Origin: a bacterium | GTDB taxonomy: Bacteria; Bdellovibrionota_C; UBA2361; SZUA-149; JAEUWB01 | Length of the DNA stretch: 46,573 bases | Direction of reading: 5' to 3' | NCBI GenBank assembly: GCA_016786595.1 | Contig: JAEUWB010000056.1 | Span: 1 to 46,573 of the forward strand | Shown: piece by piece, positions 7,321 to 46,573 of the stretch | Layout of the letters: each line of letters begins with the position of its first letter | How positions within the stretch are numbered: the first letter of the stretch is position 1 | The notes under the pieces: model-generated | Told to the model about the DNA's origin: nothing | Database searches by the model: none | What the model saw: only the letters and a program-made list of their open reading frames with translations | Program-made: the position numbers and the translations under genes

Positions 7321-9255
7321 ATGCAAGCATTAGTTTTAAACAAGAATTTGAATTTACAGCAGACAGTGCGCCGCAGCATGCTGATCATACTTTGCTACAC
7401 ATGCACTCTATACGCATTAACTCTATGCAGAGTGATTACACAAGCCACAGCCGCACCTACAGTTACTGTGGGTGTAAATCCCAAAGTCGGAACGGTTGAA
7501 GATCTATTTACCCTCACAGTCAAAACATCGGGGTCGAGTCAGCAAACGGGCAAGCCGCGCTTGAATCATTCAGATATTTTTAAAATCGTAGGCACAACCT
7601 CAAATTCGCAAATCTCAATTATTAATGGCGTAACCTCATCCAGTATGAGTTATAGTTTTCAACTTGCTCCCGATCTAGCGCTTGCCCCTGGCAAATACCA
7701 AACCCCTTCCGGTGTAATTGAAGTCGGCGGCGCAGAGGTTGAAATTCCGCGCAGTGAAATTACAATTAATCCCACTACAAATCCGGGAAGCAAGCAACAA
7801 AGTGGTGGCGCAAACCAACCGTCTGACCCCAAAGATAGTCCTGCGACAAACCAAGTAACTCCAGGCTCATCGCTACGTCAGGATGCCGACATTAAGCGGC
7901 CGTTTGTTGGACAGCAAATAATTGCCACGACAACCTTAAGCACGGCCGCCGCATTATCCAACATAGAAATCACCGATCCGAATTTCCCGGGATTCTGGCG
8001 CGAGGAATTGGGACAAGATGGTCAAGAGACAAATACTGATCACTTAACCGGAGTCACAGAAATTAAAGTGCATGATGCGCTCTTTCCACTCAAAGCCGGA
8101 GCACTAAGGATTTTATCACGCACAATTTCAGCACGTGAGCAGGTGCGCCGCAAAGCACGTTTGCCAAACCCGTGGAACTTCGATCCCTTTGCAGACGACC
8201 CTTTTGATTTATTTGCGACAACACAAATTGTTCCACGTAGGATTATTTCCAACCCAGTTGATTTAGAGGTGCGCCCCTTGCCGCCTGCCCCCAAGCAAAC
8301 GCCCTATGTCCCCGTAGGAATGTTGCGCTTAGCTTCGTCAATCACACGCAGTGATGCACAAGTCGGAGAAACAATCACTTATGTGCTTGAACTTTTCGGT
8401 GATGCAAATCTACGCCCACTTGAAATTAATTCTCTTCCAGTAAATGAAACCGAATTTTCAGTCTATGCAGAAAAACCACAAATTGAGCGTTTTTATGAAA
8501 ATGGTCGAGTCTTTTTCAAAAAGAAATTTACTTTTTCAATCGTTCCACTTCAGCCTGGACAATTAAAAATCAATCCGCTGGAGATTTTAATTTTCGACCC
8601 GTTCAAGGAGCGCTATGAAACGATCAAAACCCCTGAGCGCAGCATCAATGTGACTGGCAGTGCGATTGCAGCGCTAACTCCAGCACCAGGCAAAACTAAT
8701 CAAACAGAGGCCCCGGGTGATTCCGAACCGATGCAGACTCCACAGGACGAAATTAAAGTACCTCAAGCACCTACTATCGCTGCGCTTGAAGCTCCTCTCC
8801 TTCAAGCCCCCTGGTATGCGCGTGCTCCGCTGAGCAGTAACTTGGCACTGTTTTTTACGGTCTTACTACTAGCTAGCAGTTACGCGCTTTCGCGTTTCTA
8901 TGCGGCGCATGCCGCGCTTGAAGCTGACCCGCATTTAGGGCAGCGCTTACATGCCTTAGGAAATTTCAAGAAAGCTTTAGCAAGTATTAATCGAACTGAA
9001 GCGCTAAACGTGCGTGAGCTAATCGATCAGTTTAAGTTATTCTTGCAGCAACGTTTTGCTATTTCTGCCCAAAGCATGACGCCAAATGAAGTAGTAGCAC
9101 AACTTGAGGCCCTGAGCGTTAATTCAGATTTAACAAGTCGCACTAAGCAGTTTCTGCTTGAACTTGAAGCGTTACAATTCTCTAAGCTGCATGCTCCTGC
9201 AGTAAATATTCAACAAACCGCAGAAACCTTAGCTAGTGAATTAGATCGAGTATGA
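7321..9255 (+). CDS. batD: BatD-like secreted/membrane protein
   Basis: Large periplasmic 'oxygen tolerance' protein. From the ATG at 7321 it has about 644 residues: a long signal-like hydrophobic stretch (SMLIILCYTCTLYALTLC), Ig-like beta repeats opening with VTVGVNPKVGTVEDLFTLTV, a proline/glutamine-rich linker, a second beta module (about VGETITYVLELFGDANL), and a C-terminal membrane helix (LALFFTVLLLASSYAL) with a cytosolic helical tail. The open frame could begin at a GTG at 7282, which would overlap batB. I chose the ATG because GAAAAGAG lies just upstream. The end overlaps batE by 4 bases. Confidence 0.88.
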   Translation: MQALVLNKNLNLQQTVRRSMLIILCYTCTLYALTLCRVITQATAAPTVTVGVNPKVGTVEDLFTLTVKTSGSSQQTGKPRLNHSDIFKIVGTTSNSQISIINGVTSSSMSYSFQLAPDLALAPGKYQTPSGVIEVGGAEVEIPRSEITINPTTNPGSKQQSGGANQPSDPKDSPATNQVTPGSSLRQDADIKRPFVGQQIIATTTLSTAAALSNIEITDPNFPGFWREELGQDGQETNTDHLTGVTEIKVHDALFPLKAGALRILSRTISAREQVRRKARLPNPWNFDPFADDPFDLFATTQIVPRRIISNPVDLEVRPLPPAPKQTPYVPVGMLRLASSITRSDAQVGETITYVLELFGDANLRPLEINSLPVNETEFSVYAEKPQIERFYENGRVFFKKKFTFSIVPLQPGQLKINPLEILIFDPFKERYETIKTPERSINVTGSAIAALTPAPGKTNQTEAPGDSEPMQTPQDEIKVPQAPTIAALEAPLLQAPWYARAPLSSNLALFFTVLLLASSYALSRFYAAHAALEADPHLGQRLHALGNFKKALASINRTEALNVRELIDQFKLFLQQRFAISAQSMTPNEVVAQLEALSVNSDLTSRTKQFLLELEALQFSKLHAPAVNIQQTAETLASELDRV

Positions 9256-9983
9256 GTAAAAGAATCCTTATTTTGATATTCACACTATGCTCTGTTTCGC
9301 TGGCCAGTGCCGAAGATTCCGGTTTAGCTCTTTATCAGCAGCAAAAATATCTTCTCGCTAAGCAAGCTCTGAAGCGTGAGCTTGAAAGTCAGGGGCCGCA
9401 GGCGAATTTGCTGTTACTTTTAGCTTTAACTGAGTATCAACTGCACGAACGTGGTCAAGCCGTAAGAGATCTACGCCATACATTAAACATCAATCCAACT
9501 AACCAAACAGCATTACAAACACTGTCAACAATTCGCAAAGAAATTAAAACAAATTTAAGCAGACCGCAGCCACTGGTGCCTTTAGTAACAACACTCAATG
9601 ATTTTTCAATGGATCTCTTGGCGCTAATTTTTGCTGGGCTGACTTTAGTGACGCTCTATTTCACAAAAAGACGCGGTTTATTCAAGCGCCAGTTGCATCG
9701 TATCTTTGCGATTTTAACTTTATTAGTACTAACCGTGCGCTACACCTCACATCTTGGACCAGAGGGGCTGAGGATTTTTAGTCTGCAGCGACCTAATTAT
9801 GCTGTGGTGGTGCGTGACCAAACGCAAGTCTTCTCTGCTCCACAGACTCAAGCTCAAGTAATTGAGATCGCCAGCGCTGGCACAGAAGCAAGCATCATTG
9901 GAAGCGATAAAACTTTCTTAAATATCCTACTCCCGAGTGGCCGCACGGGCTGGGTTACTGCTGATGCAGTGAGTAGGATTTAG
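9252..9983 (+). CDS. batE: BatE-like TPR/SH3 membrane protein
   Basis: Last gene of the Bat operon, 243 residues. An N-terminal signal peptide (ILILIFTLCSVSLASA) is followed by TPR-like helices (about 24-95), one or two membrane helices (about 117-165) and a C-terminal SH3b-like domain (about 185-243, ending SGRTGWVTADAVSRI) that probably faces the periplasm. The order TPR-TM-SH3 is typical of BatE. It begins in an ATGA overlap with batD. Its stop overlaps the tail of the convergent DUF4143 gene by 4 bases, leaving no room for a conventional terminator. Confidence 0.85.
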   Translation: MSKRILILIFTLCSVSLASAEDSGLALYQQQKYLLAKQALKRELESQGPQANLLLLLALTEYQLHERGQAVRDLRHTLNINPTNQTALQTLSTIRKEIKTNLSRPQPLVPLVTTLNDFSMDLLALIFAGLTLVTLYFTKRRGLFKRQLHRIFAILTLLVLTVRYTSHLGPEGLRIFSLQRPNYAVVVRDQTQVFSAPQTQAQVIEIASAGTEASIIGSDKTFLNILLPSGRTGWVTADAVSRI

Positions 9984-11119
9984 GAAATAATTTCCCCGCT
10001 CCAGAGTTCATGTAAAAATTTTTCAACCGGAAATATTTCGATGTTTCCTTCTTTTCTATAGTTCTTCTCCAGACAGATCAGAATCAATCGTGCAAACTTT
10101 TGCTCTTCTGCAATTGACTTAAGTCCTTTTAGATCATTACGACCGATCCGTTCTTTTCCCTTCACCTCAAGTGCAATTGAATCACCGATCACAAAATCTA
10201 CTTCGATTTTCGATAGCGATCGCCAAAATGTCAGTGGCAAATTTTTTCTTTGATATGAAAGATATGCTTTTAATTCAATCAATATTAAATGCTCGATGGC
10301 ATCACCAAAACTTTTACTTCCATACGTAATGTCAGCAGTACCTTTCAATGCATTGGCGACTCCAACATCAAATAAATAAAACTTTGATGTGGCAACTGGT
10401 TTACGTTTTGAAGTGTGCTGAAAGGGCGGTAATTGATAACCTAAGAGAGTATCTTCTAGCATTTGATAATATTCCCTGACGGTTCTTGGGGGCACGGCTG
10501 AGTCATTACCAATATTAGTGTAATTAATGAGTTCTCCACTATGCAGTCCAGCTACTGTCAGAAAGCGGGAAAATGCCTCAATATTTCTAATCGAAGATTC
10601 AAATTTGATTTCTTCCTGCAGATACATGCCAATATAGTCCTTTAGATCAGCATGATAGTCGGCTGAGAGATAGATTGAAGGGAGCCCCCCCCTGTTGATG
10701 CGTTTTAAAAGATCATGTTCTGTGAATTCAGGATAGACAAGCGGGTAAAAACTAGCGCTGGCGGCTCTGCCAGCAAGTAGGTTTAGATTTTGTTTTTTTA
10801 ATTTCCTGGCGCTACTACCTGTTAGTATAAATCGAAGATCTTTATTAGCTTCGATCATCAGGTGAATTTCATCTAATAAACTTGGAAGTTTTTGAATTTC
10901 ATCGACAATGATTAATTGATCATTTTTAGTTAATTGCTTGCGTATATTTTCTGGACGTTGACTAAGATCTCTAAAAGTATCGGCCTCGAGTAGATTGTAG
11001 ATTTTAGCAGTTGGGAAATATGACTTGATGTAGGTAGTTTTTCCAGTTTGCCTAGGGCCAAGCAAAAATAGTGATTTTCGAGCTAAAATCATCGAAATGT
11101 CTAATATTCTACGAAACAT
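9980..11119 (-). CDS. AAA ATPase with C-terminal DUF4143 (first copy)
   Basis: P-loop ATPase of the widespread AAA_14/DUF4143 type, often found in accessory DNA; its biological role is unknown. From the ATG at 11119 it has 379 residues, with Walker A GPRQTGKT (21-28), Walker B LIIVDEIQK (69-77), sensor LTGSSARKLK, and a C-terminal DUF4143 domain with a PD-(D/E)xK-like core (VDFVIGDSIALEVKG). The open frame extends to a GTG at 11173. I prefer 11119 because a promoter-like pair (TTGCCA, 17 bases, CATATT) would begin transcription almost at this ATG. It is convergent with batE, 4-base overlap. A second, divergent paralogue lies at 44148-45299. Confidence 0.85.
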   Translation of the reverse strand: MFRRILDISMILARKSLFLLGPRQTGKTTYIKSYFPTAKIYNLLEADTFRDLSQRPENIRKQLTKNDQLIIVDEIQKLPSLLDEIHLMIEANKDLRFILTGSSARKLKKQNLNLLAGRAASASFYPLVYPEFTEHDLLKRINRGGLPSIYLSADYHADLKDYIGMYLQEEIKFESSIRNIEAFSRFLTVAGLHSGELINYTNIGNDSAVPPRTVREYYQMLEDTLLGYQLPPFQHTSKRKPVATSKFYLFDVGVANALKGTADITYGSKSFGDAIEHLILIELKAYLSYQRKNLPLTFWRSLSKIEVDFVIGDSIALEVKGKERIGRNDLKGLKSIAEEQKFARLILICLEKNYRKEGNIEIFPVEKFLHELWSGEIIS

Positions 11120-11130
11120 GGCATATAATA

Positions 11131-11154
11131 TGCCAAATTTCGCAAAATTTGGCA
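11131..11154 (-). promoter_or_regulatory. Perfect inverted repeat inside the putative promoter of the first DUF4143 gene
   Basis: Two perfect 10-base arms, TGCCAAATTT and AAATTTGGCA, are separated by CGCA. The repeat fills the spacer between a possible -35 (TTGCCA, 11155-11150, minus strand) and a possible -10 (CATATT, 11132-11127) 17 bases apart, and ends 11 bases before the ATG at 11119. This placement suggests an operator for a dimeric repressor, perhaps autoregulation. The transcript would be nearly leaderless. No run of T follows, so a terminator is unlikely. Confidence 0.5.
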
Positions 11155-11288
11155 ATATGAAGGTTGCGGCCACCTTACGGCCAAATCAAATTATTAACTA
11201 AATACGGCTAATTGTAGTGTATTTACTGAAATAAATTATAGATCAAAGTAACCCAGTGCTCACGGTCATTAAGGTAAGGGGGGGCACC

Positions 11289-17368: not shown

Positions 17369-18457
17369 ATGTTAACATTTGATGACGAAACACCAACCAA
17401 AACAACAACCGAAAGCACGCCAGAAGAAATCACAGGTGGTCGTAACAAGCGCGTTCAAGTTCAAGATAAGCGCTTGATCAATTGTAACGCCGTAGATGTA
17501 AACCAACTCATGCCACTTAAGTACAAGTGGGCTTGGGAACATTATCTAAATGGCTGTGCCAATAACTGGCTGCCTACCGAAGTTCCAATGGGCAAAGACA
17601 TTGAGCTATGGAAATCAAGCGGGCTTTCGGCTGATGAGAAAACCTTGGTGATGCGTAACTTGGGGTTTTTTAGCACTGCTGAAAGTTTAGTTGGAAATAA
17701 TATTATTCTGGCAATTTTTAAGCACGTCACTAATCCTGAATGCCGTCAATATTTATTACGCCAGGCTTTTGAAGAAGCAGTCCATACGCATACCTTTCAC
17801 TACATCGTTGAATCGCTGTCCTTAGATCAAGGTGAAGTATTTAATATGTATAACGAGGTCAATACGATTAATGCCAAAGACCAGTTCGAGATGAAGCTAA
17901 CTCAGGCTGTGCTTGACTCAAGCTTCTCCACCGAAAGTTTTGAAGGCGCACAAAAGTTTCTAGAAAACTTGATTGGCTATTACATCATTATGGAAGGAAT
18001 TTTCTTCTATAGTGGTTTTGTGATGATTCTTTCGTTACATCGCCAAAATAAAATGACTGGTATTGGAGAGCAATTCCAATATATTCTACGCGATGAGACG
18101 ATTCATCTAAATTTCGGCATTGATTTGATCAATGGCATTAAAGAAGAGAATCCAGAAATCTGGACACCAGCATTCCAAGGCCATATTCTCAACCTCATCA
18201 ACGAGGCAGTTGATCTTGAATATAAATATGCAGCAGATTGCTTGCCGCGAGGGATTCTCGGCCTAACAGCGCCAATGTTTAAAGACTATGTCGGCTATAT
18301 TGCAGACCGTCGCTTAGAGCGAATTGGTCTTAAAGCTCAGTATGGCTCTAAAAATCCATTCCCTTGGATGTCTGAAACAATTGACTTGCAAAAGGAAAAG
18401 AATTTCTTTGAAACGCGGGTCACTGAATACCAAGGGGCATCGTCCCTGCAGTGGTAG
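17369..18457 (+). CDS. nrdB: Class Ic ribonucleotide reductase small subunit (Phe at the radical site)
   Basis: The R2 subunit, 362 residues from the ATG at 17369, with AGGAG 8 bases upstream (a TTG at 17348 is less likely). Metal ligands are E105 (TAESLVG), E136 and H139 (EEAVHTHTF), E209 (MEGIFF), E243 and H246 (DETIHLNFG). The position of the radical tyrosine is F143. The spacings 31, 66 and 34 between these residues equal those I recall for Chlamydia trachomatis R2 (E89, E120, F127, E193, E227), the Mn/Fe class Ic prototype. An intact C-terminal tail (YQGASSLQW) should bind NrdA. It follows nrdA by 51 bases in the same operon. Confidence 0.96.
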
Positions 18458-18496
18458 AAGACGGGAGATTGTAAGAGTATTTCCTTTAAACTTAAG

Positions 18497-18534
18497 CTGG
18501 GGCGTTGTGAGCTTTTCAGCCGACCGCGCCCCAG
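18497..18534 (+). terminator. Hairpin after nrdB
   Basis: CTGGGGCG (18497-18504) and CGCCCCAG (18527-18534) can form an 8-base GC-rich stem about 40 bases after the nrdB stop. No T-run follows, so it is either a weak or Rho-assisted terminator, or a 3' stabilising structure. It also sits just past the end of the convergent small gene. Confidence 0.45.
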
Positions 18535-18544
18535 TAAGTTAGCC

Positions 18545-18715
18545 TCATTCTGACTTCATATCCTGATCGCCGCTTTGGCGATCAGCGGATCCAGCCTCAT
18601 AGTCGGAGCTATGAGTAACGTAGTATATGAAAAGCAAGAGCAAAGCTAAACCAGCTATGTACGGCAATAGCTCAAGCCAGTCAGAGGGGCTGCTAGATTG
18701 CGCGATCAAGCCCAT
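18545..18715 (-). CDS. Small one-TM protein, second of a coupled pair
   Basis: A 56-residue protein from the ATG at 18715, starting 1 base after the stop of the upstream 47-residue gene, so probably translated by coupling. One membrane helix (about residues 15-32, LPYIAGLALLLLFIYYV) is followed by a polar, acidic tail. The last codons contain a perfect 9-base stem (CTGATCGCC, 18563-18571, and GGCGATCAG, 18577-18585) that could help end the transcript. No family is recognised. The open frame can extend upstream to a TTG at 18757, but that would overlap the preceding gene. Confidence 0.55.
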   Translation of the reverse strand: MGLIAQSSSPSDWLELLPYIAGLALLLLFIYYVTHSSDYEAGSADRQSGDQDMKSE

Positions 18716-18716
18716 T

Positions 18717-18860
18717 CTAGCACCCGCAATCATGGGGGTCCGAAAAGATGTCGGCAAACATCTCGTCCATCCCCCTCGAGACTGCCACTAAGGCAGCAAT
18801 CCCGCATACGACAAGGAGGCCTCCAAGGCCCAAGAGGACTTTCTTCTTTTTCTTATCCAT
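18717..18860 (-). CDS. Small one-TM lysine-rich/cysteine-ended protein, first of a coupled pair
   Basis: A 47-residue protein with a strong GGAGG Shine-Dalgarno 9 bases before its ATG. It begins MDKKKKKVLLGLGGLLVVCG, a positive N-terminus leading into a membrane helix (about 8-27), and ends with the acidic, cysteine-bearing tail FADIFSDPHDCGC. The start of the 56-residue protein follows immediately. The pair reads away from the split Cas4-like genes, which begin 200 bases off on the other strand. No known family. The good ribosome site, coupling and clear TM design support a real gene. Confidence 0.6.
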   Translation of the reverse strand: MDKKKKKVLLGLGGLLVVCGIAALVAVSRGMDEMFADIFSDPHDCGC

Positions 18861-18877
18861 TTGATTTTTCCTCCCTC

Positions 18878-18925
18878 CAGAGGAATCCTAAAAGCTTAGT
18901 TTATAAGCGCCTTAAAATTCCTCTG
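18878..18925. repeat. Inverted repeat in the divergent control region
   Basis: CAGAGGAAT (18878-18886) and ATTCCTCTG (18917-18925) form perfect 9-base arms around a 30-base AT-rich loop. The repeat is next to the Shine-Dalgarno of the 47-residue gene (minus strand), so it may fold in the leader mRNA or act as an operator between the divergent small genes and the split nuclease genes. Confidence 0.35.
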
Positions 18926-19060
18926 CATAAAAACCTAAAACTCTTACAATCTCTTGATGTCACTTAAAGACAACAAAAGATTGCCGATTTCAAACTACCA
19001 AAAAGAAGATTTCAAAGAACAAAAATGAGGTTATAGTTCACAATATATTACTTTTTAACT

Positions 19061-19312
19061 ATGAAAAAGCAACCAGGCGAAAATAGTTTAGTTTCAGCCT
19101 CTGAGATTAGAAGCTTTCATTCTTGCCCAGAATTTTGGAGACTAAGCTCAGTATTAAAACTTAAACCAAGCAATGACAAAGCTTTAGAACGCGGCAAACG
19201 TCTACATCGCAACTGGACCAGAGCAGATTTTTATACTGCAGCGTTAATCAAACTAGCAGTCGCAAGCATTTTCATCGTTGCCATCCTTTATTACCTAGGC
19301 ATATTTCGATGA
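19061..19312 (+). CDS. Split Cas4-like nuclease, N-terminal half with C-terminal TM helix
   Basis: An 83-residue protein with the start of a Cas4/RecB-type fold: SASEIRSFHSCPEFWRL, where the lone Cys fits the first 4Fe-4S ligand of Cas4-like proteins, then ALERGKRLHRNW, the usual second helix. It then ends in a membrane helix (about 61-82, IKLAVASIFIVAILYYLGIF) instead of the catalytic core. Positive residues before the helix place the N-terminus in the cytoplasm. The stop overlaps the next start by ATGA, so both halves are coupled. I see no Shine-Dalgarno. Role as half a nuclease is inferred from motif order across both genes. Confidence 0.7.
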   Translation: MKKQPGENSLVSASEIRSFHSCPEFWRLSSVLKLKPSNDKALERGKRLHRNWTRADFYTAALIKLAVASIFIVAILYYLGIFR

Positions 19313-19797
19313 AACTCCCGCAAACTCTGGTCATAGTTTTATTAATCGTGATTGTCATCGCACTGATCCAGCGTCGCAAATCTGGCTTCGGTTTTGGCAA
19401 GACAATTAGTCACGATGATCTGACGCTTAAGTCTAAACACTATGGATTAATCGGCAAACCTGACAGAATTGTTGAATATCGTGGTAAATATATCCCTGAA
19501 GAGAAGAAAACGGCTTTCCGTTTTCAAGACTCCTTTCGCGCCCAGATGGGAGTTTATTTTATCCTAATCGAGGATCATTTCGGCATCAGACCACCTTACG
19601 GATACATTGTACTCGGCAATGGCAAGCGTGTCTGCGTTAAGAACACAGCAGAACTTAGAGAACTAGTCTTAGCAAGCGCTGAGCAAATCCGCGAACTAAG
19701 GCATCAGTCAAATTCTCCGCTTGAGCCTATTGGCGTGAATTCTAAGCAGTGCCTACGCTGCGGGCAGCGCGAGAATTGCACAGTGCGACTCGCTTAG
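19309..19797 (+). CDS. Split Cas4-like nuclease, C-terminal catalytic half with N-terminal TM helix
   Basis: A 162-residue protein opening with a membrane helix (TLVIVLLIVIVIALI, about 5-20) and a positive 'QRRK' inside edge. A PD-(D/E)xK core follows: GLIGKPDRIVEY (catalytic Asp), IPEEKKT (ExK), then FRAQMGVYFILIED, the family's Q/Y helix, and PPYGYIVLGNGK. The C-terminus carries three cysteines in CLRCGQRENC which, with the lone Cys of the upstream protein, make the four ligands of a Cas4-type 4Fe-4S cluster. Together the genes look like one Cas4-like fold interrupted by a membrane hairpin and broken between its helices. No CRISPR array is in the window. The nuclease call is strong; the target is unknown. 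Confidence 0.78.
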   Translation: MKLPQTLVIVLLIVIVIALIQRRKSGFGFGKTISHDDLTLKSKHYGLIGKPDRIVEYRGKYIPEEKKTAFRFQDSFRAQMGVYFILIEDHFGIRPPYGYIVLGNGKRVCVKNTAELRELVLASAEQIRELRHQSNSPLEPIGVNSKQCLRCGQRENCTVRLA

Positions 19798-19807
19798 AAA
19801 CGCCACT

Positions 19808-20086
19808 GTCATTAATGAAATGGACCTTTTCTTTTTCTTTACTTTACGCTCCAGTTGAAGATACTTTAATCCCAAATAATTATAGAAAAACAACTAGTTG
19901 GAATTAATGCCTTGGCTGGCTGAGGCCCTGGGTGGGGGAGAAGTTTGAAGAAAGTAAAGCACAGTCCGAAGCAATATGTTTTAAAATTACCCACTATTCG
20001 ATGCAGAGGACGAGCCATTTCTGAAAACGTCTCCCCACCCAGGGCGCTATAAGAATAGCGCTAAAAAGGTCCATTTCATTAATGAC
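19808..20086. mobile_element. 279-bp MITE-like element with perfect 23-bp terminal inverted repeats
   Basis: The ends are exact inverted copies over 23 bases: the left runs 19808-19830 (starting GTCATTAATGAAATGGACC) and the right 20064-20086. An inner pair of imperfect inverted repeats, around GCCCTGGGTGGGG (19924-19945) and CCCCACCCAGGGC (20024-20045), lets the whole element fold into a long hairpin. It has no open frame of note. It lies between the convergent ends of the nuclease half (19797) and lpxI (20092), where it could also act as a two-way terminator. No target duplication is obvious. Confidence 0.65.
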
Positions 20087-20091
20087 AAAAA

Positions 20092-20979
20092 TCAAATTCC
20101 AACGATTGCAATTTGATGCTGATTCGCTAAGGCCACCATCTGTTCGCGCTCCAGCACCAAACATTTTCCGGCTTCGACGGCAAGTCCGCGACATTTAGCT
20201 TGTATCATTGTTTCAATTGTACGTAGGCCAATTGTTGGGACATCAAAGCGCAAATCTTGAGTAGGTTTTGAAAATTTCACAACGATTGCACCTTCACCTG
20301 CTAGCTTCCCGCCACGTAAAATTGCCTGATCTGACCCTTCAACCGCTTCAACTGCCGTAATCACGCCGTCTTTCACTACTACAAGCTGTCCAATATCTTG
20401 CGCGCTCATTGCCGCCAAGGCAGCTTGTCCAATTTCAACATCCTCAAGTTCAAAACTTGCAAATTTACGCGCCGTCAGGGCCCCTCGCATCACCAGCGAA
20501 TCTTGCATGAAAACCATTGAAGGCACGACCTCAATTCCTTCACTTAAGAGTTCGTCGGCTAACCCGCGCATGACCCTGTCATCCTTAGTGCTTCGAATTT
20601 TCGCCATCAACAGTGCTCCGCGAGCATCTAAACGCACGCCTCCAAAAAGCTTTACACGGTTAATGCCCCCGACCATTGCCGCATGCTTCACGCCATGACG
20701 TTTGAAGGTATCAATCAGCGAACCAACCTGACCTAGCTTGATCCACGTATATGCGCTAAGCTCTTGCTCGAGGTTTTTTGAAGTTTCATCTTCGTGAAAT
20801 ACGCCGACGACATTAAATCCAGAGTGCTTAGCGGCCTTGATAAATTCAAAAGGGAAGAGCCCGCTCCCGGCGATTAGTCCAATTGTTGAACCCTGAGGAA
20901 TGGAGCAATTTTCTAGATCGAAACTAGCACCTTTTTGTTGTAGGCTAGCTTGTTTGGGAACTTTAGTGAATGGCCACAT
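20092..20979 (-). CDS. lpxI: UDP-2,3-diacylglucosamine pyrophosphatase LpxI
   Basis: Cleaves UDP-2,3-diacylglucosamine to lipid X in lipid A synthesis; LpxI replaces LpxH in many alpha- and delta-proteobacteria and other phyla. The 295-residue protein matches the DUF1009 plan: an N-terminal domain with GLIAGSGLFPFEFIKAAK, the linker VKHAAMVGGINRVKLFG, and the C-terminal domain with TAVEAVEGSD and the closing DLRFDVPTIGLRTIETM block. It follows lpxA by 14 bases on the same strand. lpxB, often the next gene, is not present here; the MITE-like element lies 5 bases past the stop. Confidence 0.92.
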   Translation of the reverse strand: MWPFTKVPKQASLQQKGASFDLENCSIPQGSTIGLIAGSGLFPFEFIKAAKHSGFNVVGVFHEDETSKNLEQELSAYTWIKLGQVGSLIDTFKRHGVKHAAMVGGINRVKLFGGVRLDARGALLMAKIRSTKDDRVMRGLADELLSEGIEVVPSMVFMQDSLVMRGALTARKFASFELEDVEIGQAALAAMSAQDIGQLVVVKDGVITAVEAVEGSDQAILRGGKLAGEGAIVVKFSKPTQDLRFDVPTIGLRTIETMIQAKCRGLAVEAGKCLVLEREQMVALANQHQIAIVGI

Positions 20980-44147: not shown

Positions 44148-45299
44148 TCACAGTGCATACTGCTCGATAAATGCCTTTGGTGATGCTTCAAAATTCAGAT
44201 AGTTTTCAGGAGTAATGATTAGCCCTTTTGTATTCGGAAATTTCTTGCGAAATGCTTCAAGGCCTTTTGAATTCTTATAGCGACCACTCTTAACCTCAAT
44301 CGCATATAAATTCCTACCAATCTTTAAAACAAAGTCGACTTCCTTATCCTCTTCACGCCAGTAGTATAGCGCCTCATCAAGACGCACTAATTGCGTCCCG
44401 ACCATGAGCTCAAGAGCTCTTCCAGTTTCCTCAGTAGAATACTTGTCGAGAATAGACAGATACGGCAAACAAGGTGCCATTGGTAAAATCTTTGGCGATG
44501 ATGATTTTATCTTAAAAGATTTATTTGAGTACTTATCTAACGTTTTAATCAGGAATGCGCCCTCATACAGCGAAAGATAGTATTTGATTAATTCAACATT
44601 TCCTCGATCTTGAAGCTGCCCGAGGAGTTTCGTATATGAAATCTCCTGGGCTGGATATGAAATTAGTATTTCAAATGCCTGCCGAAAAAGCGCTGGATTC
44701 TTAACTGTATGATACTGAAGAATGTCTTTTTCGATCACCGTAGCGATAATCGAATTTCTCACATAACTAACCCAATCACTTGAATTAATAAACTGATACG
44801 ACCCCGGATAGCCACCAAATTTTAAATACTCTTCAAAAGTAAGCTTGTACCCTTCGTTCGATTCCTTGTAATTCCAATGATAAACATTCGTAAGCTGGAA
44901 ACGACCGGTCAAACTTTCACTAAGTCCTTTTTGAATTTGCAGCGAACTAGAGCCTAATAATACGCACTGAACTGGCTTCTTTGCTCGCTTTGAAGCGTCG
45001 TAGAGGGATTTAATTGTTTCAGACCAATTATAAGACTTTTGTATTTCATCAATAAAAAGAATCTTCCTCTCTTCTTGGGCTTTCTGCCAATTAAACTGCA
45101 ACCACTCCCGATCTGCATGAAATACCTGATCAGCGCTTACATACAGCGCCTGCTTCGGATAATAGTCTTCAATTAATTTAAGTATGGACGTTGTTTTCCC
45201 GACTTGCCTAGGCCCTAATAATACCTGAACCAGCCCCTTTCTCGAATCAATTCGAGCCTTTAAGGCACTAATACAATTGAGATAAATTAGCCGTTCCAT
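44148..45299 (-). CDS. AAA ATPase with C-terminal DUF4143 (second copy)
   Basis: A 383-residue AAA_14/DUF4143 protein. Walker A GPRQVGKT (29-36), Walker B ILFIDEIQK, sensor LLGSSSLQIQ, then the DUF4143 domain with a PD-(D/E)xK-like core (EVDFVLKIGRNLYAIEVKSG). Same plan as the 9980-11119 protein but clearly diverged, so it is a paralogue, not a duplicate. It is bracketed by repeat copies B and C in the same orientation, and a 48-base near-perfect palindrome lies 10 bases before its ATG. No Shine-Dalgarno is seen. Role unknown. Confidence 0.87.
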   Translation of the reverse strand: MERLIYLNCISALKARIDSRKGLVQVLLGPRQVGKTTSILKLIEDYYPKQALYVSADQVFHADREWLQFNWQKAQEERKILFIDEIQKSYNWSETIKSLYDASKRAKKPVQCVLLGSSSLQIQKGLSESLTGRFQLTNVYHWNYKESNEGYKLTFEEYLKFGGYPGSYQFINSSDWVSYVRNSIIATVIEKDILQYHTVKNPALFRQAFEILISYPAQEISYTKLLGQLQDRGNVELIKYYLSLYEGAFLIKTLDKYSNKSFKIKSSSPKILPMAPCLPYLSILDKYSTEETGRALELMVGTQLVRLDEALYYWREEDKEVDFVLKIGRNLYAIEVKSGRYKNSKGLEAFRKKFPNTKGLIITPENYLNFEASPKAFIEQYAL

Positions 45300-45992: not shown

Positions 45993-46573
45993 TTATGTCT
46001 CATTAGTTTTTTCATTTCGCGGAATAACAAAAAATGGCACAGGTGGAAGAAAGGTAGGTAAACGCATCCACCAAGGTAGTAAAATTTCGCCATTAGGTTT
46101 CGGGTTATGTGCACTAGGGGACCTGCCAGCTAGCGGAGCAGGATCAGGAACCTTGCAACCTGGCTCTAAATGCTTGCTGCCGAAATTATTTCTATCATGC
46201 CAATGATCTTTAGCTTTCCATCCCAGATCATTTGGTCTTCCTTGGTGAAAATCCAACGGACGGCCTGATGAGTCTACATACCTTTCCCCATAAGGATCCC
46301 GATGACTTAAATCTCTTTTCCACTCGGGACCTAGTCCAGATGGATTCTTTGGCAGCTTGAAATCCAACCCACTCGGGTCCACATACTTCACTGGGTTCCC
46401 GGCGACATAGGCAAACATATTATCCCCACCGGCATACTCAATCGGGTCGCGGCTCATCCAGCGGTATAAATCAGGCGCATACCACCGTGCCCCGGCTAAA
46501 TACATCCCATAGACTTGCTCATCGTAGTAGTAACCATACTTACCACTTTTCTTAATTTTAATAATTAATCGCT
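45993..46573 (-). CDS. Rhs-repeat protein, C-terminal end with toxin-like tail (partial)
   Basis: The frame stays open to the right edge, so only the end of a larger gene is here. The Rhs core ends with the standard YLAGARWYAPDLYRWMSRDP, then GGDNMFAYVAGNPVKYVDPSG, after which Rhs proteins switch to a variable toxin. The ~125-residue tail here is rich in His, Trp, Asp and Pro: FHQGRPNDLGWKAKDHWHD, then SKHLEPGCKVPDP. A cluster such as KDHWHD...KHLEPG resembles polymorphic-toxin nuclease tips, but the class is not certain. Such proteins act in contact- or secretion-dependent competition. Confidence 0.8.
   Translation of the reverse strand, partial: RLIIKIKKSGKYGYYYDEQVYGMYLAGARWYAPDLYRWMSRDPIEYAGGDNMFAYVAGNPVKYVDPSGLDFKLPKNPSGLGPEWKRDLSHRDPYGERYVDSSGRPLDFHQGRPNDLGWKAKDHWHDRNNFGSKHLEPGCKVPDPAPLAGRSPSAHNPKPNGEILLPWWMRLPTFLPPVPFFVIPRNEKTNET

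Follow-up and report, generated by a model that had tools for sequence, protein, structure and literature searches.

Analysis of the window (the whole stretch of 46,573 nucleotides that was examined) identified two overlapping genes, here designated A and B, that together belong to the Cas4 family on the grounds of sequence, motifs and fold, and whose products very probably form a two-chain nuclease held in the membrane. Such a two-chain membrane form of the Cas4 nuclease is apparently undescribed so far. The preliminary description had reported two overlapping open reading frames at positions 19061-19797, coupled through an ATGA overlap and carrying a set of Cas4-type motifs, and both frames were found exactly as placed (Table 1). 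Behind the hydrophobic helix of B, the motifs follow in the order QRRK, GKPDRI, IPEEKKT, the Q/Y helix and CLRCGQRENC (C-x2-C-x5-C). The four Cys and the D-ExK residues, which had been said to be kept, are indeed all present, with Cys22 carried by A and D52, E65, K67, C148, C151 and C157 by B. Junctions of the ATGA or GTGA type between A and B were also seen at seven homologous loci (L004, L007, L013, L017, L025, L026 and L092). The neighbours of the pair in the window are nrdAB, which precede it, plus an unrelated gene. An RNA family scan of positions 18400-20400 gave no match, and promoter and terminator scans returned nothing above chance level. Between nrdB and A lies a 70-aa open reading frame with one hydrophobic stretch (18545-18757, minus strand), which is at most a candidate gene.

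Table 1. Positions in the window of genes A and B, their motifs and their predicted elements
Feature	Position	Strand	Description
ORF A	19061..19312	+	83 aa; N-terminal piece of Cas4/RecB-type fold (Cys22, helices, ERGKRLH), C-terminal membrane helix
ORF B	19309..19797	+	162 aa; N-terminal membrane helix, catalytic core, three Cys of Cas4-type nuclease
ATGA overlap, A stop/B start	19309..19312	+	Translational coupling (predicted)
Cys22 of A (FHSCPEFW)	19124..19126	+	Presumed first 4Fe-4S ligand; Cys in 45/45 aligned members
Predicted membrane helix of A, N-in	19241..19297	+	Kyte-Doolittle 2.33; same position in homologues
Predicted membrane helix of B, N-out/C-in, then QRRK	19315..19371	+	Kyte-Doolittle 2.67
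GKPD...PEEKK: catalytic D52, E65, K67	19453..19509	+	Alignments with homologues, including the 45-row alignment
Q79 and Y83 of Q/Y helix	19543..19557	+	Alignments with homologues
C148, C151, C157 (Cys triad, presumed 4Fe-4S)	19750..19779	+	Cys in 45/45 aligned members

Family membership was assessed with profile searches of A, B and the two sequences joined. Against Pfam Cas_Cas4, B alone matched with an E-value of 1.2e-8 and 35.7 bits (cut-off 22.7), and the joined sequence with 1.8e-9 and 38.3 bits. The NCBIfam cas4 profile (TIGR00372) was matched by B at 2.7e-14 and 53 bits and by the joined sequence at 1.2e-16 and 61 bits; since both scores fall under the curated equivalog cut-off of 65 bits, we describe B as Cas4-like and do not call it a Cas4 equivalog. 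B matched the PADLOC Cas4 profile at 4.7e-15, and the best PADLOC match of the joined sequence reached 3.1e-17. On its own, A gave matches to Pfam PDDEXK_1 (6.5e-4), PADLOC Cas4 (1.5e-3) and a phage exonuclease profile, phrog_1218 (7e-8), all of them falling at the N-terminal end of these profiles, and it matched profile A2 at 9.6e-9. Because A matches the profile N-termini and B matches Cas4, one fold is divided over the two chains, as had been proposed, and the concatenated sequence outscored either half against the Cas4 profiles.

The fold was evaluated on an AlphaFold model of a homologue in which A and B are fused (mean pLDDT 87, pTM 0.82). This model shows a nuclease domain with two long inserted helices, spanning residues 42-86 and 105-132. 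Foldseek matched it to type I-C Cas4 (2.5e-7), Dna2 (2.5e-7), AdnA (7e-7) and ACE1 (2.7e-5), as well as to Cas4-Cas1, and indicated fold kinship to MGME1; the TM-scores lie near 0.5 with high rmsd because of the inserted helices. It is on this predicted structure of a fused homologue, rather than of the window pair, that the Cas4 fold is recognized.

Hydropathy, scored as the best 19-residue Kyte-Doolittle mean, and the model of the fused homologue both predict that A and B carry one membrane helix each. Both helices score at least 1.6 in 43 of the 45 aligned members, and the connecting loop has a mean length of 22 residues over the 45 members and is 6 residues long in the window pair when joined. 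Lys and Arg residues average 2.9 before the first helix, 4.4 after the second and 2.5 in the whole loop, a distribution that fits soluble parts in the cytosol and an external loop (positive-inside), although 11 of the 45 members fail a strict charge test. The charge pattern is thus consistent with the two-helix hairpin, flanked on its cytosolic side by positive residues, that had been suggested for the pair, as judged from hydropathy and sequence.

We searched 46 genomes of the class, which are at the same time the sample for the phylum. The nuclease core was found in 41 of these 46 genomes (in 19 of the 20 good ones), almost without exception in a single copy; the window's genome carries two. 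A separate A stands directly before B in at least 16 other class genomes (17 with the window), the spacing being typically -11 to +43 and the junction often ATGA or GTGA. In other class genomes the state is fused, with one chain of ~260-320 aa that carries the two helices after the Cys and ahead of the core, and one genus has this single chain in every genome. A search of 383 genomes returned few carriers outside the class, the nuclease being absent from most bacteria sampled; the split pair was found there in five (G104, G375, G355, G142 and G150), and it is also present in two further genomes outside the class (G531 and G562). In the phylum of G104, ~40 of 151 genomes gave a match that spans the helix, and 20 loci were examined, picked with a relaxed motif filter (a strict filter missed most). 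At 17 of these 20 loci A lies directly upstream of B, at one it lies ~0.6 kb away and at two it was not found, and none of the 20 carries a fused chain.

The existence of fused homologues, and the fact that a single indel could join the two frames, would suit a reading in which the two frames result from a frameshift in sequencing or assembly, or from decay of the gene. Against it, unrelated lineages share the split, and often the overlap as well, in many genomes that were sequenced independently, and all motifs are intact in the window pair; a frameshift was therefore rejected as the cause, and the reading as a whole is hardly credible. Close homologues were either split pairs or fused chains with both helices, not single frames lacking them, and the single-chain homologues for which a search had been suggested, with two helices placed behind the N-terminal Cys and ahead of the core, were found. 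The occurrence of the two-chain design in distant bacterial groups suggests that it is a genuine membrane form of an already known nuclease.

A tree calculated from 45 members, with the helix columns left out, needs six changes between the split and fused states, at least four of which are forced by well-supported branches. Every lineage outside the class is split and the fused chains are derived, which indicates that the two-gene form is ancestral and that fusion took place on more than one occasion; read in this way from the alignment and the tree, the chains were joined later, each time at the predicted external loop of the hairpin. The family would be an example of recurrent late fusion at one site. 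The window pair itself falls outside the other class sequences (support 97/87), its branch being long and joining others that are long as well, and neither a close relative nor a donor was found among the genomes searched; its acquisition by horizontal transfer is likely. A phage origin of the pair was considered and rejected, as one viral scan gave no relative.

Conservation of the catalytic residues differs between the window's order and the rest of the family. The four Cys and the aspartate of the PD motif are kept in 45 of 45 aligned members, and ExK-Q-Y is perfect in all 33 sequences outside the order clade, the window pair counted among them; judged from its motifs, the window pair appears catalytically intact. 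Within the order clade (12 sequences), Asp replaces Glu in nine, Lys is lost in five and Gln in ten, and all Cys stay. The second copy in the window's genome, a fused chain on another contig (C59), reads IPAIIRP at the ExK site and is for that reason probably inactive. The erosion of ExK-Q-Y with retention of the Cys suggests another use of the protein, at least in this order. Several of the eroded copies (L092-L103 and L060) lie between glycosyltransferase-like and flagellar-looking genes, as read by eye.

These observations bear on a reading in which the protein is an Fe-S membrane sensor, scaffold or regulator whose nuclease activity is secondary or lost, the window copy being active and acquired late, next to a native copy that is inactive. 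The four Cys and both helices do persist in the window's order while ExK-Q-Y erodes, the IPAIIRP copy included, and the order clade has a different gene neighbourhood, partly glycosyltransferase-like and flagellar-looking (by eye). However, the unbroken ExK-Q-Y of the sequences outside the clade speaks for catalysis, and we regard the sensor or scaffold reading as improbable.

Outside the window's order, the pair has a fixed arrangement at most loci of the class, c1<- ->c2->A->B. The two genes c1 and c2 form a divergent pair class-wide (8268-8861, minus strand, and 9118-9612, plus strand, in locus L059, plus 19 class loci); c1 has a Gly/Arg-rich N-terminus and c2 a conserved ARYAFWR..QAPE motif. 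Neither belongs to a Pfam or NCBIfam family, and a model of c2 (pLDDT 81) had no PDB match below 1e-3. In the window's genome, c1-c2 stand alone on contig C60, and A-B follow nrdAB in the window. As for loci outside the class, the phylum of G104 has rseP, PTPS, coaX-like, or NAD kinase- and RecN-like genes next to the pair (the last two by eye), and other neighbours include pyrH and frr (several neighbours were read by eye). A Cys-patterned protein of ~100 aa (CRYCGSREN...), which matches no Pfam family, is encoded downstream of A-B in this phylum (8359-8667 in L106, 8789-9112 in L107, and in L158 and L159).

The main rival to our interpretation, because of the near-universal single copy and the ordinary neighbours within the class, is that A-B are a housekeeping membrane nuclease for chromosome maintenance, which would process flaps, ends or stalled forks like Dna2, AddB or MGME1. 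The class-wide counts, the fixed c1-c2-A-B order, the neighbours pyrH, frr, rseP, PTPS, NAD kinase and RecN outside the class, the nrdAB genes before the window pair and the fold kinship to Dna2, AdnA and MGME1 are all in its favor, and a gene that is near-universal in the class, mostly single-copy, mainly vertical and fixed in its neighbourhood is unlike typical defence genes. No defence genes were found beside the pair in the window or at the class loci. On the other hand, three genomes of one family outside the class (G150, G286 and G562) have AIPR, RhuM, Abi_2, AbiEii, GmrSD, Vsr and cytosine methylase genes as neighbours, and in another genome (G355) the order is ComEC, an HHH protein, a metallo-beta-lactamase (lactamase_B), an HHH protein, A, B, a methyltransferase and UvrD, with a B that is 45% identical to that of the window over 89 residues. 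In addition, the nuclease is missing from most bacteria sampled, and a whole order tolerates catalytic loss while keeping the gene. Taken with these points, we consider the housekeeping role a serious contender that nevertheless falls short of being probable.

A role as CRISPR partner was rejected by co-occurrence. The preliminary description had stated that no CRISPR lies nearby, and this holds for the surroundings of the pair; the same genome, however, has a CRISPR locus on contig C21 (391-4201 in L061), where a 785-aa Cas12b-like effector stands beside Cas1 and Cas2, an unusual pairing, as these Cas1 and Cas2 match type II-like models. No Cas4 was seen on this contig, and Cas12b systems usually use Cas4, so that A-B might be the prespacer-trimming Cas4 of this locus. 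However, Cas1 is present in 9 of the 46 class genomes versus 41 for the nuclease, which argues that the nuclease is not part of CRISPR; Cas1 and Cas2 of the type II-like kind mostly work without Cas4; and such membrane helices are absent from the CRISPR-type Cas4 proteins (L110, L112-L116) that were recovered alongside the nuclease. The prespacer reading is accordingly very improbable. CRISPR Cas4 proteins (type I-C, 8d3l; Pcal_0546, 4r5q; SSO0001, 4ic1) share with A-B the fold match given above and the profile match, but are soluble, single-chain and encoded beside cas1/cas2.

Cas4 genes outside CRISPR loci have been surveyed as solo-Cas4 (COG1468/Pfam Cas_Cas4; Hudaiberdiev et al. 2017, PMC5704561), with solo-Cas4 noted in many Chloroflexi. 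A-B agree with solo-Cas4 in the Cas4 fold, the four Cys, D-ExK-Q-Y, the lack of cas neighbours and mainly vertical inheritance, and word searches of the survey gave no split Cas4, 'membrane' occurring once, as the name of a neighbouring gene (PMC5704561). Unlike solo-Cas4, A-B consist of two chains, each of which has one membrane helix, placed after the N-terminal Cys and ahead of the core. The same hairpin and split set them apart from two other stand-alone members of the Cas4 family, ACE1 (Argonaute-associated Cas4, 9iab/9iac) and a nuclease of Synechococcus elongatus; an Argonaute gene was not noticed next to A-B. Dna2, AdnA, AddB and MGME1 have the PD-(D/E)XK nuclease fold in common with A-B, and an Fe-S cluster is likewise present in Dna2 and AddB; A-B differ from these four in the membrane anchor and in having no fused helicase domain. 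Within the limited coverage of the open literature that we searched, nothing was found on a membrane-bound or split Cas4, an absence that is no proof.

The explanation that we favor, and hold to be somewhat more probable than not as a whole, is a two-subunit, membrane-anchored solo-Cas4 that acts on DNA at the membrane. A and B would be subunits of one PD-(D/E)XK, 4Fe-4S Cas4-type nuclease in the inner membrane, each chain crossing it with one helix, so that the C-terminus of A and the N-terminus of B would lie outside. The helices would pair as a hairpin, and this pairing would join the Cys and N-terminal helices of A with the core and Cys triad of B on the cytosolic face, while the ATGA coupling would yield equal amounts of both chains. 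DNA may then be trimmed or degraded where it meets the membrane, perhaps together with a UvrD-type helicase. An enzyme domain would in this case be divided within one fold, with the presumed cluster ligands on two chains that are maybe joined by membrane helices.

Action on DNA at the membrane is favored because of the anchoring, the ComEC/UvrD neighbour, the defence islands and the case of Synechococcus elongatus, in which transformation and the transfer or maintenance of plasmids are reduced by UvrD and by a Cas4-like nuclease that is soluble (PMC7125226, PMC10653904), and which is a precedent for a solo-Cas4 acting on incoming DNA. The defence-island and ComEC/UvrD neighbours, together with the lack of Cas1 co-occurrence, likewise help the earlier suggestion of a stand-alone DNA-processing or defence role. 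A role specifically against incoming DNA, whether transforming, conjugating or phage, is quite possible, though somewhat less likely than not. A broader proposal, which we put forward tentatively and think unlikely to hold in full, is a widespread and so far undescribed class of heterodimeric membrane nucleases whose Cas4 halves would assemble only through their membrane helices and would cut incoming DNA as it crosses the inner membrane (ComEC-adjacent in one lineage), with catalysis lost and the protein reused in one order. Solo-Cas4 has been known for years without an assigned job; the conserved hairpin and the conserved split indicate an obligate pair that would do its work at the membrane in one branch of the family, suggesting DNA entry or membrane-bound DNA ends.

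Several other features of the window were recorded. Two AAA/DUF4143-like ATPases, recognized by eye, are encoded at 9980-11173 and 44148-45299 (both minus strand), and an open reading frame at 45993-46505 (minus strand), adjoined by a small one, resembles the end of an RHS-repeat protein. Directly after B, at 19807-20087, lies an element of 281 bp that looks like a MITE: its ends are perfect inverted repeats of 24 bp, and it contains a further inverted repeat of 13 bp. Partial copies of this element, with 73-96% identity, occur on ~10 other contigs of the genome, and this sharing supports the assignment of the window contig to the genome.
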